A DNA stretch of 27,320 bases. It comes from a virus. Below the pieces are notes generated by a model. It made no database searches and was not told the DNA's origin. It worked only from the letters and a program-made list of their open reading frames with translations. Positions 4,294 to 25,784 of this stretch are shown here, in pieces. The stretch covers positions 1 to 27,320 of IMG/VR virus record IMGVR_UViG_3300021142_001958, one strand, 5' to 3'. Made by a program: the position numbers and the translations under genes. The stretch's first letter is position 1. The number at the start of each line of letters is the position of its first letter.

Positions 4294-5028
4294 ATGAATA
4301 CTTATTCAAGAAAAAATCCACCAAAAGGATTTTACGTTTATTTCTATCTCCGCGACAAAGATTCCAAAACGGCCACAAAAGGAACTCCATATTACGTGGG
4401 TAAGGGGAGCACAGATAGAGCTTGGGAACCTCATGGAAAAATACCAGTACCGAAAAATAATTCGCTTATATTAATACTACATTCAGAATTATCAGAAACT
4501 TATTCATTTATATTAGAAAGATATTATATAAAATGGTTTGGTAGAAAAGATAATAGAACTGGGATTTTATTAAACAGAACCGATGGCGGTGAAGGAGTAT
4601 CAGGTTTAATTCATTCACAAGAATCCATCCAAAAAAGAATAAACTCGAATACAGGAAAAAAACGTTCGAAACAAGCAAAATTAAACATAAGCAATAGTAG
4701 AAAAGGAGTATCATCGTCGGTTAAAAAAGGAGACGTTAGACTTCAATCTACCAAAGAAAAAATATCCAATAAATGTTTAGAAAGAGTAAAAAACAAATCA
4801 CATAATCTATTAAAACAAAAAGATGGAAGTTCTGTAGCATCTAACTTATCCAAAATAGGACAACACAACTGGCAGAAAACAAAAAATTTGGTTAAATGTT
4901 ACGATAAACAAGGCAATTATATGTTAATAACCACGGACGAATATAGGACACAAACAGGAGATATGCGATTATGGGAATATGTATCCGTGGCTAGTAACGA
5001 AGGAAAACGTAGGAAAAATAATTTATAA
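4294..5028 (+). CDS. Free-standing GIY-YIG homing endonuclease (HEG1)
   Basis: A 244-residue GIY-YIG nuclease. The degenerate GIY motif is FYVYFYL (13-19), the YIG motif is YYVGKG (33-38), and the catalytic-type glutamate is E75 in [14 protein letters not shown]. Residues about 106-140 ([10 protein letters not shown]... [16 protein letters not shown]) are NUMOD3-like DNA-binding repeats. It sits on the opposite strand to the replication genes, between 44 and the dsbA-like gene, and its stop abuts the dsbA-like stop at 5028/5029, a typical intergenic insertion of a mobile endonuclease. About 60% of residues match HEG2 over the nuclease domain by eye. Both HEGs share a late promoter and a hairpin leader. 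It probably cuts related phages lacking the insertion. Confidence 0.88.
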
Positions 5029-16479: not shown

Positions 16480-16508
16480 TTGCTAAATAAAAGTATTTAT
16501 ATTATACT
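16480..16508 (+). promoter_or_regulatory. Sigma70-like promoter for the DNA modification operon
   Basis: TTGCTA (16480-16485), 17 bases, TATACT (16503-16508), on the plus strand 29 bases upstream of the dioxygenase ATG at 16537. TATACT is also the -10 proposed for gene 44. It overlaps the oppositely directed late promoter at 16494-16501, so only one can be occupied at a time. Confidence 0.6.
16494..16501 (-). promoter_or_regulatory. T4-type late promoter for the virion protein gene
   Basis: TATTTATA on the plus strand, that is TATAAATA read on the minus strand, ending 21 bases before the ATG at 16472. Exact match to the T4 late consensus, with a structural gene downstream. Confidence 0.7.
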
Positions 16509-16536
16509 TAAAATATTGATAAAAACAGGTGATATT

Positions 16537-17886
16537 ATGGTTAGGACGATAGTTGCTGAAAAAACTTTGGATTGCGAACACCTTCTAGGTCAGTTTTTGG
16601 ATGACCGTCATTTCGATTACGTTGTGGATGAAGATTGTAATTTTTTTGCACCTCCTATTTGTGGTTTAGAGGAAAAAAGTACGTGTACAAATAAAGACTG
16701 TTCTTCCTGCCCAAAGGGAGTGGATGAAGATACTGTTATTTTTATTTTAAGGAAGAATTTCTTTACTGAAGACGAACAATTGAATGCTCTAGAGGGATTG
16801 AAGGGCGCTGCGTCTATATCTTTTAATAGAGGAATTGCTGCAGGGCCAAGAGAAGAAACGGACTCTGATAGAGAATGGGTAACTGATCTTCAATTAGACG
16901 TGTTAGATTATTTTTCAAATCCTTCTAAAAATCTTTTTGACGAAGATTCTGTCAGTGAAATTTATGATCGTTATACCAATGTTAAGGATGCTCCATCAAC
17001 CAGAGGTTATGTTTGGTTAACTTCTAAAATGAAAGCTGATGAGTTTGAATTTGATACTTGGGCTAACGATGTGAAAAATATGCCACAAGAACAACAGATA
17101 GAAGAAGCTGAAAAGATCAAACAGAAATATATTTCAAATACAAATTATGCAGGTGCAGTTCATTCAGGAGTTGCTGGTTGGTATGATAGATATCCTAGAA
17201 TTCCTTATGGCAGAGCAACTTCATACACTGAAAAGAATCCAGAAAAGTTTTCTTTAGCGTATCCTTTTTTACAAAAACTATCTAAAGCGTTTTCTACTAT
17301 TTTACCAAGGAGATGGGCTTTCCAGAAATCTTGTATTGAAAGAATTGATCCAGAATTCCACGTTCCAGATACTGTTTTTACCACAATTACTGTAAATAAA
17401 ACATTTAGAACTGCTGCTCATAGAGATGCAGGCGATTTACATCAAGGATTTTCTAATCTTTCTGTACTTACTAATGGTAAGAAATATTCTGGCGGCATGT
17501 TGGTTCTGCCAGAATTTAGAGTAGCTGTTAATGTTCGCCCAGGTGATTTATTATTGATTAATAATCACGGAGGCATTCACGGAAATACTCCTATTGTTCT
17601 TGAAGAAGACGGTGCAGAAAGATATTCTGTTGTCTGTTATTTCAGAGAGAAAATGTTAGAGTTGGGCGCTAAGATTTATGAAGACGCCAGATATAAATTT
17701 GTAGAATTCAGAAGGAATAATAAAGATCATCCAGAATGGAGATCTATGTGGAATGGAACTTCTCCTGGTATGTGGAAGTCTAAGGAATGGTATGATTTTC
17801 TTGAAAATGAATTGGGTAAAGATATGGTAGCCAAATATCATCCTGAAAGTATTGAAAGTACGATATCAATGGATGAGTTCTTTTAA
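16537..17886 (+). CDS. TET/JBP-like 2-oxoglutarate/Fe(II) DNA base dioxygenase
   Basis: A 449-residue protein. The start is set at 16537 (MVRTIVAEK), where AGGTGA is well placed; the frame opens at 16480 but the extra residues overlap the promoter. The 2OG-dioxygenase core has the iron ligands H295-x-D297 in AAHRDAGD, the distal histidine H348 in GGIHGNTP and the 2OG-binding arginine R362 in ERYSVV. Between them is NLSVLTNGKKYSGGMLVLPEF, the pattern of the TET/JBP family. These enzymes hydroxylate 5-methylcytosine or thymine in DNA. A cysteine cluster (C42, C50, C55, C58) may bind metal. First gene of the modification operon; the next ATG overlaps its stop (TAATG). No DNA methyltransferase is in the window, so the base oxidised is open. 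Confidence 0.85.
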   Translation: MVRTIVAEKTLDCEHLLGQFLDDRHFDYVVDEDCNFFAPPICGLEEKSTCTNKDCSSCPKGVDEDTVIFILRKNFFTEDEQLNALEGLKGAASISFNRGIAAGPREETDSDREWVTDLQLDVLDYFSNPSKNLFDEDSVSEIYDRYTNVKDAPSTRGYVWLTSKMKADEFEFDTWANDVKNMPQEQQIEEAEKIKQKYISNTNYAGAVHSGVAGWYDRYPRIPYGRATSYTEKNPEKFSLAYPFLQKLSKAFSTILPRRWAFQKSCIERIDPEFHVPDTVFTTITVNKTFRTAAHRDAGDLHQGFSNLSVLTNGKKYSGGMLVLPEFRVAVNVRPGDLLLINNHGGIHGNTPIVLEEDGAERYSVVCYFREKMLELGAKIYEDARYKFVEFRRNNKDHPEWRSMWNGTSPGMWKSKEWYDFLENELGKDMVAKYHPESIESTISMDEFF

Positions 17887-22285: not shown

Positions 22286-22293
22286 TATAAATA
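22286..22293 (+). promoter_or_regulatory. T4-type late promoter for pmoC
   Basis: Exact TATAAATA on the plus strand, 69 bases upstream of the pmoC ATG. It would place pmoC under gp55-dependent late transcription. AAGAGG at 22341-22346 is the pmoC ribosome site (8 bases from the ATG). Confidence 0.75.
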
Positions 22294-22354: not shown

Positions 22355-23122
22355 ATGGCTAGTATTGTTAATTCTGCTGCGGATACCGCAGAAGTGCCAC
22401 TTCTCAATAAGTCGTGGCTTGCTGGAGCCTTTAGTATCTATTTCGTATTCTATATTTGGGTACGTTGGTATGAAGGTGTTTTTGGTTGGGCTGCTGGACT
22501 TGATTCCTTTGCTCCTGAGTTTGAAACCTATTGGATGAATTTTCTTTACGCGGAGATTGTTCTTGAGGTAACAATTGCCTCAATCCTTTGGGGTTTTATT
22601 TGGAAAACTAGGGATCGTGATTTTTCTGCCCTGACTCCACGTGTCGAACTGCAACGTAATATGACGCATTTAATTTGGTTATTTGCTTATGCAAATGCTA
22701 TTTATTGGGGCGCTTCATATTTCACTGAACAGGACGGTACTTGGCATCAAACCATTGTTCGTGATACTGACTTTACACCAAGTCATATCATTGAATTCTA
22801 CCTCTCTTATCCTATCTACATTATTACTGGATTTGGAGCATTTCTTTATGCTAAAACTAGACTTCCTTTCTTTTCAGAAGGATTGTCTCTTCCTTATCTT
22901 GTAACTGTAGTTGGTCCGTTTATGATCCTTCCAAACGTTGGTCTTAATGAATGGGGACACACCTTCTGGTTTATGGAGGAACTTTTTGTGGCTCCTCTCC
23001 ACCTAGGTTTTGTTGTATTTGGATGGTTAGCACTTGCAATCGGAGGTGTTTTATTACAAGTATTTGACTCCTTTTCAAGACTCATTGGTGAGGAATTATT
23101 ATTTGTAATGAACGATAAGTAA
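22355..23122 (+). CDS. pmoC: Particulate methane monooxygenase subunit C (PmoC)
   Basis: A 255-residue integral membrane protein, the C subunit of pMMO, near the full family length. Several membrane segments are visible (e.g. 22-37, 62-83, 104-123, 145-165, 178-195, 217-236). The copper-C ligands D127, H131 and H144 (EQDGTWHQ ... TPSHIIE) and the copper-D ligands N198, H202 and H216 (GLNEWGHTFW ... APLH) are all present. Sequence such as DSFAPEFETYWMNFLY and HQTIVRDTDFTPSH is PmoC rather than AmoC. The last ~15 residues (IGEELLFVMNDK) differ from the usual ...EAVDxGLIxK ending. G+C in one sampled 60-base line is 43%, against 22% in a line of the neighbouring kinase gene, suggesting host acquisition. 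Preceded by a late promoter, followed by a terminator. Confidence 0.97.
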   Translation: MASIVNSAADTAEVPLLNKSWLAGAFSIYFVFYIWVRWYEGVFGWAAGLDSFAPEFETYWMNFLYAEIVLEVTIASILWGFIWKTRDRDFSALTPRVELQRNMTHLIWLFAYANAIYWGASYFTEQDGTWHQTIVRDTDFTPSHIIEFYLSYPIYIITGFGAFLYAKTRLPFFSEGLSLPYLVTVVGPFMILPNVGLNEWGHTFWFMEELFVAPLHLGFVVFGWLALAIGGVLLQVFDSFSRLIGEELLFVMNDK

Positions 23123-23136
23123 AAACTTATCAAAAC

Positions 23137-23166
23137 AAAAAAGGGAGGAAAAACCTCCCTTTTTTT
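23137..23166. terminator. Bidirectional terminator between pmoC and HEG2
   Basis: AAAAAAGGGAGG (23137-23148), loop AAAAA, CCTCCCTTTTTT (23154-23165): a 12-bp perfect stem with T-run on the plus strand. The minus-strand read likewise ends in T-rich sequence. It lies between the convergent pmoC and HEG2 and would terminate both; HEG2's stop codon overlaps its edge. Confidence 0.85.
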
Positions 23167-23779
23167 ATATTTTATGTTTACAATTATCAAAATGATATCT
23201 TGTCATATTCCCACCTCCACCAGATATTCCACAATGAGGACAAGTAATATTTTTTATATTTCTAGTTTTATATAATCGTCCTTCTTTATATTCTGGTTTC
23301 GAGTCTTCTGGATATATATGATATGATTTTTCATCATCGTGATACCACCGTTTACCTATACAATGTTTTCCTCCAGTATCTTTAAATTTTTGTATAGTAT
23401 CTTCAGTATATACTCCTACTTTTCCTTTGTTCCAAGGAAGTTGTCCTGTTTTCTTGCCCTTATTCCAAGGTGTGTATGGTTTTCCTTTATTCCACGGTGT
23501 TCCACCAGATAGACCTTCACCACCATCTGTCATATTTCTTAGAATGCCTGTGTTGTTATCTTTTCTACCAAACCATCTAATGTAGTATCGTTCTTGAATG
23601 AACGCTTGACATTCGGTTAGGTTCTGTGATATAATAATGTTTCTGTTTAGGTCTTTTGGAACTGGAATATTTCCATGTTTCTGAAATCTTCTTTTTCCAG
23701 AACCTTTACCGACATAATATGGAGTGAAATCTTCTCTTAAATAGAGATAGACATAAAAGTGTGACTGATAAATACTCAT
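23165..23779 (-). CDS. GIY-YIG homing endonuclease with C-terminal zinc finger (HEG2)
   Basis: A 204-residue GIY-YIG nuclease starting at the ATG at 23779, which has AGGAG eight bases upstream; the frame extends to 23821 but without homology. Motifs are YVYLYL, YYVGKG (21-26), catalytic-type E63 in [14 protein letters not shown], and [15 protein letters not shown]. Next come NUMOD3-like repeats of the type PWNKGK (three copies). A C-terminal zinc finger, [12 protein letters not shown]...HFDNC, completes it. The nuclease domain is close to HEG1. It lies convergent with pmoC just past the pmoC stop, and a second pmoC 3' end lies 0.7 kb beyond its promoter, suggesting it homes into the pmoC region. 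Confidence 0.9.
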
Positions 23780-23783
23780 GCTG

Positions 23784-23834
23784 ATACTCCTGTTTAGTAT
23801 TAGAACCCATAGATACGCCAATATCGTGATGGGT
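23784..23834 (-). promoter_or_regulatory. Two-hairpin leader of HEG2
   Basis: Read on the minus strand: outer stem ACCCAT/ATGGGT (23834-23829 with 23810-23805), inner GATA/TATC (23825-23822 with 23815-23812), then a second stem ATACT/AGTAT (23800-23796 with 23788-23784). The AGGAG ribosome site (23791-23787) lies partly in this stem. Same plan as the HEG1 leader, with compensated changes. Likely delays translation. Confidence 0.6.
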
Positions 23835-23851
23835 ATTTTTATTGACTATGG

Positions 23852-23859
23852 TATTTATA
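23852..23859 (-). promoter_or_regulatory. T4-type late promoter for HEG2
   Basis: TATTTATA on the plus strand, i.e. TATAAATA on the minus strand, starting 80 bases upstream of the HEG2 ATG. As for HEG1, the endonuclease appears to be a late gene. Confidence 0.65.
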
Positions 23860-23875
23860 TAATGAGGATTAAATA

Positions 23876-24049
23876 ATGAAAACTATCTTTGAAAAAGAAT
23901 ATTGTGGTGAATCTCTTTCTGATATAGAAAGAGATATTAACGAAGCATTTTCGGATCAATTCAATCCTGTTATGCGTGAGATTCCAGTAGATGATTGGGG
24001 ATTTCCAAAAGGAGACATTAAAGTTACTATTGTGTGGAGTAATGATTAA
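23876..24049 (+). CDS. Small conserved-type phage protein
   Basis: A 57-residue protein (starts MKTIFEKEYCGE). GAGG lies 8 bases upstream. The pattern FEKEYCGESLSDIERDINEAF, then FNPVMREI and KVTIVW, resembles small hypothetical proteins common in T4-like cyanophages as I remember them. Function unknown. First of three overlapping plus-strand small genes between HEG2 and the pmoC remnant; its stop overlaps the next ATG (TAATG). Confidence 0.6.
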   Translation: MKTIFEKEYCGESLSDIERDINEAFSDQFNPVMREIPVDDWGFPKGDIKVTIVWSND

Positions 24050-24258
24050 TGACAAAATATTCTGGAACTAAATGGAATACTGATGAATGTGGTAGGTGTG
24101 GAAAACCACACCATAATTATTCGGGAAAATTTGATAGATTTGGTATAGAATATGTAGTTTGTGGTATAACACATAAACGCATGAATGTTAATCAAACCAC
24201 GGTTCGTGATGTTTTTTATGCAACAAATTGGTATATAGATGGTGATAAGAATGACTGA
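24049..24258 (+). CDS. Small putative zinc-binding protein
   Basis: A 69-residue protein. ECGRCGKPHHNY near the N-terminus and VVCGITHKR further on give C-x-x-C...H and a later C/H that could bind zinc, though a full set of ligands is not certain. GGAG lies 9 bases before the ATG. No family recognised. Overlaps both neighbours. Confidence 0.55.
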   Translation: MTKYSGTKWNTDECGRCGKPHHNYSGKFDRFGIEYVVCGITHKRMNVNQTTVRDVFYATNWYIDGDKND

Positions 24259-24490
24259 ATCCGAACTATTAAAAAAGTATGAGGATGAAGTTAAACAAAT
24301 TCCAGAAATGAGGAATTTAGTTTCCTATAGATGTGAGGATGCTGTAAAAATTATTTCTTTTTTAATTAGTAATTATAATAAATCAGATAATGATTATGTG
24401 TTATTAGGTGTTTGTGTTGCCTTTTTAAAAGGAAGATGTAATCCTGCTATGATTAAAGATATTATTAATGAATGGAAGGAAACTGAATAG
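24251..24490 (+). CDS. Small helical protein of unknown function
   Basis: A 79-residue protein from the ATG at 24251 (MTESELLKKYEDE); a longer frame from 24239 adds four residues but GGTG is placed better for 24251. Mostly helical with a conserved-looking core CEDAVKIISFL. Its stop codon is followed directly by PmoC-like coding sequence from 24498. Its G+C (22% in one sampled line) contrasts with the 43% of the remnant that follows. Confidence 0.5.
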   Translation: MTESELLKKYEDEVKQIPEMRNLVSYRCEDAVKIISFLISNYNKSDNDYVLLGVCVAFLKGRCNPAMIKDIINEWKETE

Positions 24491-24497
24491 GATATCC

Positions 24498-24638
24498 CCT
24501 TTACATTACGGATTTGTGTTCTTCGGATGGTTGGCACTAGCAATTGCAGGAGTTCTTCTCCAAGTGTTTGCCTCATTTGGCAACCTTATTGGCAAAGAAG
24601 TAACTGAAGCAGTAGACAGTGGTCTTATTTCTAAGTAA
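24498..24638 (+). pseudogene. pmoC 3'-end remnant (second, diverged copy)
   Basis: Codons from 24498 read PLHYGFVFFGWLALAIAGVL..., then LIGKEVTEAVDSGLISK and a TAA stop at 24636. This is the C-terminal membrane helix and the canonical tail of PmoC, including the His equivalent to copper-D ligand H216. Over 34 aligned codons with the intact gene, 26 residues are identical but 15 of those 26 codons differ synonymously. No N-terminal part exists. An in-frame ATG at 24468 could give a 56-residue peptide, but its upstream part is not PmoC. A strong terminator follows at once. Confidence 0.9.
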
Positions 24639-24655: not shown

Positions 24656-24680
24656 AAAGGGGGCTTCGGCCCCCTTTTTA
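24656..24680 (+). terminator. Intrinsic terminator after the pmoC remnant
   Basis: AAAGGGGGC (24656-24664), TTCG tetraloop, GCCCCCTTT (24669-24677), followed by TTA. A 9-bp perfect stem with stable UUCG-type loop and T-tail; the original terminator of an ancestral pmoC transcript. Confidence 0.9.
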
Positions 24681-24767: not shown

Positions 24768-25784
24768 ATGTCAAAAAAATACGATTTAATCGTCTATATT
24801 GGACGTTTTCAACCATTTCATAACGCTCATCATGAAATCCTTTGTAGGGCAAAAGCACTTGCGGAAAAAGTAGTGCTCATTATAGGCTCTTCCCAGCAGC
24901 CTAGAACATATAAAAACCCATTTACTGATTATGAACGTAAGATGCTCATGATTGGTGATTGGGAAGTATCTTCTTATTGTGTCAAAGATTGCATGTATAA
25001 TGATCAAGCATGGGCAGTCAGTATACAAGAAGCTGTCGCAAAAGAAGTTTACAATGCGTTTTACTTGCAAGATAATGTTAAAATTGGTATTATCGGACAC
25101 GAAAAAGACCAATCAAGTTTTTATCTTAAAATGTTTCCTCAATGGGATCACATTGATGTAGAATGCATCGAACCGTTACACTCTACTAATATCAGAGATT
25201 TATATTTCCGTAATGATGTTAATATGAATTTTATTAAAGGTGTAGTACCTACAAAAGTTTTTACTTTTTTGAACGAATTCAAAGACAGTGAATCATATAA
25301 ACAAATAGTCAAAGAACGAGAATTTATTGAAGATTATAAGAAACAATACGCTTCATTTCCTTATCCTCCTACATTTGTAACTACTGATGCAGTTGTTATC
25401 CAATCAGGACATGTTTTGATGATCAAACGTAAATCAGAACCTGGTAAAGGATTATGGGCATTACCCGGAGGATTTCTGAACGCTGATACAGACAAAAGTA
25501 TGATCGATTGTTGTATTAGAGAATTGAAGGAGGAAACTGGTATTAAAGTGCCCGTTCCTGTATTGAAAGGAAACATAACAAATTCTAAAGTTTTTGATGC
25601 TATTGGGCGTAGTGCTAGAGGCAGAACAATAACCCATGCATTTAAGATAGTTTTGCCTGATGGAGAACTTCCAAAAGTGAAAGGTTCAGACGATGCGGAA
25701 AAAGCTAAATGGGTTCCTATTTGGGAATTACAATCTGAAGATTGTTTTGAGGATCATTATGATATCATTTCTTATTTCGTTTGA
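24768..25784 (+). CDS. nadM: Bifunctional NMN adenylyltransferase/Nudix hydrolase
   Basis: A 338-residue two-domain protein. The N-terminal nucleotidyltransferase domain has the phosphate loop YIGRFQPFHNAHHE (HxGH-like) and, later, HSTNIRDLY (the ISSTxIR-like motif). It joins NMN to ATP to give NAD. The C-terminal Nudix domain has GLWALPGGFLN followed by RELKEETGI; the core REXXEE is intact, but the first glutamate of the Nudix box is not in the usual place (spacing longer by two). Similar fusions occur in Vibrio phage KVP40-type viruses. Next in the cluster are an RlaP-like gene and nadV. Confidence 0.92.
   Translation: MSKKYDLIVYIGRFQPFHNAHHEILCRAKALAEKVVLIIGSSQQPRTYKNPFTDYERKMLMIGDWEVSSYCVKDCMYNDQAWAVSIQEAVAKEVYNAFYLQDNVKIGIIGHEKDQSSFYLKMFPQWDHIDVECIEPLHSTNIRDLYFRNDVNMNFIKGVVPTKVFTFLNEFKDSESYKQIVKEREFIEDYKKQYASFPYPPTFVTTDAVVIQSGHVLMIKRKSEPGKGLWALPGGFLNADTDKSMIDCCIRELKEETGIKVPVPVLKGNITNSKVFDAIGRSARGRTITHAFKIVLPDGELPKVKGSDDAEKAKWVPIWELQSEDCFEDHYDIISYFV

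Follow-up and report, generated by a model that had tools for sequence, protein, structure and literature searches.

The window analysed here, a viral DNA stretch of 27,320 nt comprising positions 1 to 27,320 of IMG/VR record IMGVR_UViG_3300021142_001958, carries a pmoC gene on the plus strand (22355..23122), which starts with ATG and encodes a protein of 255 aa. In a Pfam search, this protein matched PF04896 (AmoC/PmoC) with 398 bits over profile positions 8-244 of 245. Comparison with solved structures gave 448 bits for the Methylococcus-type PmoC 7ev9_C, as opposed to at most 248 bits for the three AmoC chains among the matches listed. All six ligands of the CuC and CuD copper sites are present. 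The CuD ligands are N198, H202 and H216, whose counterparts in M. capsulatus we take to be N227/H231/H245, and the CuC ligands are D127, H131 and H144, corresponding to D156/H160/H173 in the M. capsulatus numbering printed in PMC7674155.

A tree of 145 PmoC sequences, which included no AmoC outgroup, placed the window PmoC in a phage clade of 13 sequences beside Methylococcaceae PmoC (SH-aLRT 87), at the tip of a long end branch (0.24 vs. a median of 0.012). At alignment columns conserved to at least 99%, the window PmoC departs at one residue only (E97V), and dN/dS of codons 12-213 against phage relatives ranges from 0.02 to 0.07 where dS is estimable, some pairs being saturated. The gene is full-length and under strong purifying selection; judged from the sequence, it appears to be a working copy whose product may assemble into pMMO and function there. 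These results bear out several claims of an earlier, sequence-only reading of this DNA, namely a near-full-length PmoC with intact CuC and CuD ligands, its distinction from AmoC, and a methanotroph host. The phylogeny it had proposed as a check, in which a position outside methanotroph PmoC would have spoken against it, puts the window PmoC inside that group, and a gammaproteobacterial methanotroph is supported as the host. A possible boost of methane oxidation in late infection was a further suggestion of that reading. Phages with pmoC from freshwater were, as it had also stated, already published (PMC7674155); among INPHARED phages, no pmoC match was found.

The T4-type late promoter motif TATAAATA is located at 22286..22293 (plus strand), 69 nt before the pmoC ATG, and is conserved in relatives. 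Of 52 distinct phage regions upstream of pmoC, 33 contain it within 120 nt of the gene, compared to 70 of 4200 control stretches, and its position in relatives is mostly 77-93 nt ahead of the pmoC start. These 52 distinct 120-nt regions represent the loci of scan 1 together with the window; duplicates, loci for which no full-length start was called and regions with less than 150 nt to the end of the contig had been removed. The number of motifs in the window alone is at chance (5 found vs. 6.0 expected) and was rejected as evidence; what counts is the conservation in relatives. In addition, the window encodes a gp55-like late sigma factor, a gp45-like sliding clamp and a gp33-like regulator. 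Because the motif is conserved before the pmoC genes of relatives and late factors are encoded in the window itself, the predicted late expression of pmoC, which had already been proposed from the promoter in the earlier reading, is well supported at the sequence level. Elsewhere in the window, a Tet/JBP-type 2-oxoglutarate oxygenase (16480-17886; PF12851, 80 bits) possibly contributes to phage DNA base modification.

Downstream of pmoC, we observed a hairpin followed by a T run, which resembles a terminator (23140..23166, plus strand), and, beyond a cassette of 1.4 kb, a second pmoC 3' end. This orphan end was detected as a second PF04896 match in the window (24495-24596, profile positions 211-244; 37.2 bits with a cut-off of 26.7). 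It comprises codon 214 to the stop codon (24498..24638, plus strand) and is in frame with an ATG at 24468 (56 codons). Its sequence is identical at 135 of 136 nt to the pmoC 3' end of L008, a phage contig of 73 kb. It is followed by its own terminator (24657..24679, plus strand), which is unlike the one after the window pmoC and orthologous to the terminator after pmoC in L009/L010, and then by a nadM-Nudix gene (24768..25784, plus strand), which in L009-L011 stands directly after an intact pmoC in an unoccupied arrangement. Because of the match to L008, the L009/L010-type terminator and the neighbouring nadM-Nudix gene, we regard the orphan as the native, canonical pmoC tail, so that the odd tail of the open reading frame would be the newcomer.

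This putative replacement tail covers codons 214-255 (22994..23119, plus strand) and starts at the boundary between codons 213 and 214 (22993|22994, plus strand; hereafter site S4), exactly where the orphan end begins. It agrees with the orphan copy at 70 of 102 nt and with L008 at 71 of 102 nt, and it has three residues (L217, G230 and E246) that are not shared by any further member of a set of 134 distinct PmoC proteins. The sequence-only reading had described the tail as unlike the canonical ending, which is correct, but it had overlooked the canonical end 1.4 kb downstream and the endonuclease gene between the two. The odd tail of the window PmoC is not a matter of C-terminal drift alone. 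A query of IMG/VR with the tail (best 80 of 107 relatives) yielded no donor carrying it, and our search for a second contig with the window's own cassette was likewise negative.

The cassette between the two ends consists of the terminator, an endonuclease gene (HEG1), a second copy of TATAAATA and three small open reading frames. HEG1 is encoded on the minus strand (23165..23779), tail-to-tail with pmoC; it spans 204 aa from the ATG at 23779, the frame being open from a TTG at 23821, and ends in a C-terminal zinc-finger-like motif. The second TATAAATA (23852..23859, minus strand) lies 80 nt before the HEG1 ATG. The small passenger ORFs, all on the plus strand, encode 57 aa (23876..24049; phrog_11659, unknown function), 69 aa (24049..24258; family not found) and 83 aa (24239..24490; no family above the cut-off).

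At the sequence level, HEG1 showed a weak PHROG match to homing endonucleases and no Pfam match, and a Foldseek search against the PDB returned nothing significant (E 0.38). Its catalytic pattern (Y8, Y19/G21, R27, E60, N79) is invariant in 16 homologues. While an AlphaFold2 prediction without alignment was unusable (mean pLDDT 36), the model obtained with 16 homologues was usable and reached a pLDDT of about 90 or more in the N-terminal domain. Its structural matches were headed by PD-T4-3 (Z 7.2) and UvrC (Z 6.1), with Slx1 scoring lower; PD-T4-3 and Slx1 are, we assume, GIY-YIG nucleases. Rows 1-5 and 7-10 of these matches are GIY-YIG nucleases (Z 7.2-2.8, the best of them at 7.2-6.0), and the first unrelated row has a Z of 3.9. 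Homologues beside other phage pmoC genes match PF01541, NUMOD3 or, weakly, SegE. By its modelled fold and catalytic residues, HEG1 is a GIY-YIG homing endonuclease, which would be expected to cleave DNA site-specifically and to be mobile. Free-standing GIY-YIG genes of T4 (Seg, MobE class) stand between phage genes, and HEG1 is like them in placement but unlike them in having no Pfam match.

A second GIY-YIG endonuclease gene, HEG2 (4294..5028, plus strand), shares 59% identity with HEG1 in the catalytic domain. It adjoins the clamp-loader gene in the replication block, and a copy of TATAAATA is found 103 nt upstream of it. The last codons of HEG1, encoding the zinc-finger end (23177-23212), are 92-100% identical over 33-36 nt to endonuclease genes beside pmoC in five other contigs (L029, L030, L039, L044 and L046). 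These genes are otherwise dissimilar to HEG1, as if the shared end were a recombination anchor.

A second, independent case of a stranded pmoC end was found in contig L018, where a complete (spliced) pmoC is followed by a reverse GIY-YIG gene, a small ORF and a decayed pmoC 3' end from residue 217. Beyond these two, no orphan pmoC end was found in the loci of scans 1 to 4, and ten contigs added later were compared by tblastn only. The idea that the L018 remnant represents the tail type of the window ORF was unsupported, with 20 of 33 residues shared with the window tail and 21 of 33 with the canonical tail. Published assemblies of pmoC-phages often broke at pmoC, with similar copies as the cause (PMC7674155), and the orphan end could in principle be a misjoin of two pmoC-bearing phages in one metagenome. 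However, L008 shows no match to the sequence on either side of the orphan block, the right flank of this block runs into the native terminator and nadM, and L018 independently has the same arrangement. An assembly chimera is therefore a most improbable source of the second end.

We further looked into the related phage genes, in many of which the pmoC reading frame is interrupted. Deduplication by name left 80 + 17 + 8 + 2 = 107 pmoC-phage contigs, or 108 with the window, and 11 of the 108 carry a total of 15 group I introns. This frequency is a lower bound, since the scans kept 80 relatives each (the best 80 of 115 in scan 1, 80 of 122 in scan 4, 80 of 107 in scan 5 and 80 of 131 in scan 6); in seven contigs (L074, L079, L238, L336, L341, L342 and L343), pmoC is partial at the contig end. 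Rfam model RF00028 gave nine matches of 69-105 bits, all above the gathering score, in five of seven loci tested, and missed the introns of L036 and L039. Our own model, made from 11 introns, found 13 in 97 contigs, all of them in pmoC, and in addition one each in L269 and L398; its scores of 157-185 bits come from a model built from most of these same introns. The introns are 249-261 nt long, have no ORF of their own and are mostly found beside a GIY-YIG gene. In their core, 34 of 43 pairs have changed on both sides. A U precedes the 5' splice site and a G forms the intron end throughout the set, with the exception of L022 intron 1. This intron (L022 1540-1790), the first of four in tandem, ends in A at the predicted splice site, where splicing may be altered or three residues may be inserted. 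With the introns removed, each of the 11 contigs again encodes a PmoC, 249-260 aa in length.

The introns occupy eight sites, given here in window codons: 44|45 (L017), 128|129, between the CuC ligands D127 and H131 (L269), 201|202 (L022), within codon 204 (L039, L044, L046 and L398), within codon 206 (L018 and L022), 213|214, i.e. S4 (L022 intron 3 and L036), within codon 219 (L029 and L030) and 223|224 (L018 and L022). Six sites thus fall into codons 201-224 around CuD and one inside CuC, and L022 alone harbours four introns within 22 codons of one gene. Seven of the eight sites are at most 7 codons away from a copper ligand (permutation p 0.0003, in a test that ignores the general preference of introns for conserved sequence). 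The L269 intron in the CuC motif surfaced through the window-tail query of IMG/VR. All eleven intron-bearing contigs belong to those that share 82% identity or more with the window in residues 129-201. In bacterial pmoC, no introns were found in 80 loci, as judged by uninterrupted reading and, for five of them, by Rfam. For the window, the possibility of a group I intron was rejected: Rfam reported none at E up to 5, and our own model reached 12 bits at best with filters off. At the edge of the L036 locus (1-229), we noticed a partial tmRNA-like match (RF01850, 54 bits, below the gathering score).

The first base of the orphan end, at 213|214 and close to a CuD histidine codon, coincides exactly with the site at which L022 intron 3 and the L036 intron are inserted. 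The same position emerged from pairwise comparison of the phage genes. Among 2145 phage pairs, the sharpest 3' exchange was that between L004 and L008 at CDS nt 638 (97% identity before, 69% after), which lies one nt from 213|214, and the L008 tail beyond this break is the orphan tail of the window. The pmoC genes of L004 and L008 are about 97% identical up to codon 213, after which their 3' ends are strongly different. Sharp recombination-like breakpoints were also seen at pmoC CDS nt 318 in L213/L234 and L227/L237, which belong to the other phage pmoC clade and lie far from the intron sites found. A clustering of breakpoints near CDS nt 660 was discarded as a homing signal, as it appeared equally in bacterial pairs (85/87) and phage pairs (45/53).

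Endonuclease genes are associated with intron-bearing pmoC. Of the 7 groups with introns, 5 have a GIY-YIG gene at most 150 nt after pmoC, compared to 4 of the 49 groups that lack introns (Fisher p 6e-4). For these neighbour statistics, 98 of the 108 contigs were entered; L074 and L238 have no usable gene end, which left 96, and 93 had at least 500 nt downstream. Clustering of the 93 contigs by ungapped identity gave 56 groups, a few near copies (e.g. L031 and L078) counting apart. The GIY-YIG genes beside phage pmoC belong to several subfamilies. Different endonucleases and introns that repeatedly reach one coding stretch fit homing into a sequence that cannot drift.

Two other histories are conceivable. 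In the first, pmoC is a plain phage auxiliary gene whose tail has merely diverged, and the orphan is a recombination scrap left without any homing mechanism. The N and C termini are indeed the variable parts of PmoC, both according to PMC7674155 and in our alignment, and C-terminal divergence is common in PmoC generally, which counts against an invasion by a cassette. However, this history leaves unexplained why the junction, an intron site and the L004/L008 breakpoint all fall at codon 213|214 and why endonuclease genes are associated with intron-bearing pmoC, and we consider it very unlikely. In the second, two adjacent pmoC copies arose by tandem duplication, and the second was destroyed by insertion and deletion until its 3' end was left. 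Decay of such a pair would leave one intact copy and a remnant, and tandem pmoC copies do exist in bacterial MAG contigs (L109-L113, Methylococcaceae/Methylumidiphilus loci). Yet the 107 other phage contigs carry a single pmoC in the stretch covered, the L018 remnant apart, the syntenic L009-L011 have one copy at the locus, and random decay would not predict a remnant that begins exactly at an intron site beside an endonuclease cassette. A decayed duplicate thus appears unlikely.

We consider it probable that the pmoC of the window is a working phage gene and has been the target of an invading GIY-YIG homing-endonuclease cassette, in a combination of collaborative homing with a tail-replacing cassette. 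HEG1 or its ancestor would cut an uninvaded pmoC in the conserved CuD coding region, presumably at S4, and repair from a donor phage would bring in the endonuclease gene together with its passenger ORFs, as well as the pmoC 3' end and terminator of the donor. One complete gene would result, in which the 5' part is joined to a new tail that starts at codon 214 or further upstream, with the endonuclease gene ending tail-to-tail with it. The recipient's old 3' end would be stranded downstream together with its own terminator and neighbour gene, and the completed pmoC would be transcribed late. The endonuclease could spread because every restored pmoC stays functional. In related phages, where group I introns occupy the same few dozen base pairs of pmoC, an intron that splices itself out would shield the gene from the neighbouring endonuclease and ride on its cuts, as in collaborative homing.

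The replaced tract may extend upstream beyond the tail. The whole window ORF, and not only its tail, has diverged from L008 (about 77% nucleotide identity), and therefore the cassette may have carried all of pmoC with it. Another phage or host would then have supplied the complete gene, only the last 141 nt of the recipient gene would have survived, and there would be no hybrid at codon 213. The divergence of the entire ORF and its long branch in the tree would agree with such a whole-gene replacement, whereas the 5' flank and body of the ORF find their best alignment in the syntenic L009/L010 (78% from 22319), as a native gene would. We regard it as a possible but less likely course; being a variant of the proposed cassette invasion with a longer conversion tract, it shares part of its probability with that invasion.

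The closest match to the layout of the window is provided by mobile-ORF hybrids of fungal mitochondria, such as Allomyces atp6 and Glomus atp6, atp9, cox2 and nad3. There, an endonuclease ORF was inserted along with a C-terminal end of foreign origin, which makes the gene complete, and the native end was left downstream (PMC3630166). The window likewise has a duplicate pmoC end with HEG1 between the copies, the inserted end being divergent (70/102) and the native end like that of relatives (135/136). In the fungal genes, the native ends are 91-98% and the inserted ends 64-81% identical, compared to 99% and 69% in the window (PMC3630166). Unlike the fungal examples, as far as these are described there, the window stems from a bacterial virus, concerns pmoC, and contains an endonuclease gene that converges on pmoC and is accompanied by a separate promoter motif and by passenger ORFs. 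A phage case of such a C-terminal-replacing endonuclease hybrid was not found in our literature search.

Among phages, the closest system is the psbA gene of cyanophage S-PM2, where a group I intron and the adjacent free-standing endonuclease F-CphI, with the intron site at the cut site, take part in collaborative homing (PMC6083498). Here as there, a gene of host energy metabolism, in its phage copy, carries a group I intron and adjoins an endonuclease gene, an arrangement that we found in relatives and not in the window, which has no intron. As far as that source describes the psbA system, with its Endo VII-type enzyme, phage pmoC differs by its GIY-YIG endonucleases, eight intron sites and convergent genes, and the window and L018 by their stranded 3' end.

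The pmoC-phages of freshwater lakes reported by Chen et al. 2020 have a stand-alone phage pmoC and methanotroph hosts, as proposed here, and late co-expression was inferred for them (PMC7674155). The words 'intron', 'homing' and 'endonuclease' are absent from the main text of PMC7674155. In contrast to that account, the interruptions in comparable genes are group I introns here, and the tail duplication is an endonuclease cassette. Group I introns are likely the cause of the published 'fragmented' phage pmoC, to the extent that our contigs represent those named genomes. Literature linking pmoC or methane monooxygenase to group I introns or homing in phages was not found in a search that covered mainly open-access journal papers, among them PMC13037316 and PMC10904782.

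More tentatively, and with slightly less than even confidence, we suggest that the copper-site codons of phage pmoC may form a homing arena for several GIY-YIG endonucleases and at least eight intron sites, in which cuts drive the exchange of tails. Homing would converge on the CuC and CuD codons because these sequences cannot drift without loss of methane oxidation. The window would then be the first replacement-end cassette seen in a prokaryotic system, and the published fragmented pmoC genes would be intact via splicing. If this is true, phage pmoC genes read as broken would yield an intact product by self-splicing, a point of direct relevance to the question of whether infected lake methanotrophs can receive additional PmoC from these phages. 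Phage pmoC would also join psbA as the second phage energy-metabolism gene subject to collaborative homing, at a far greater number of intron sites, and selfish endonucleases would reshuffle a host-derived enzyme gene between phages.
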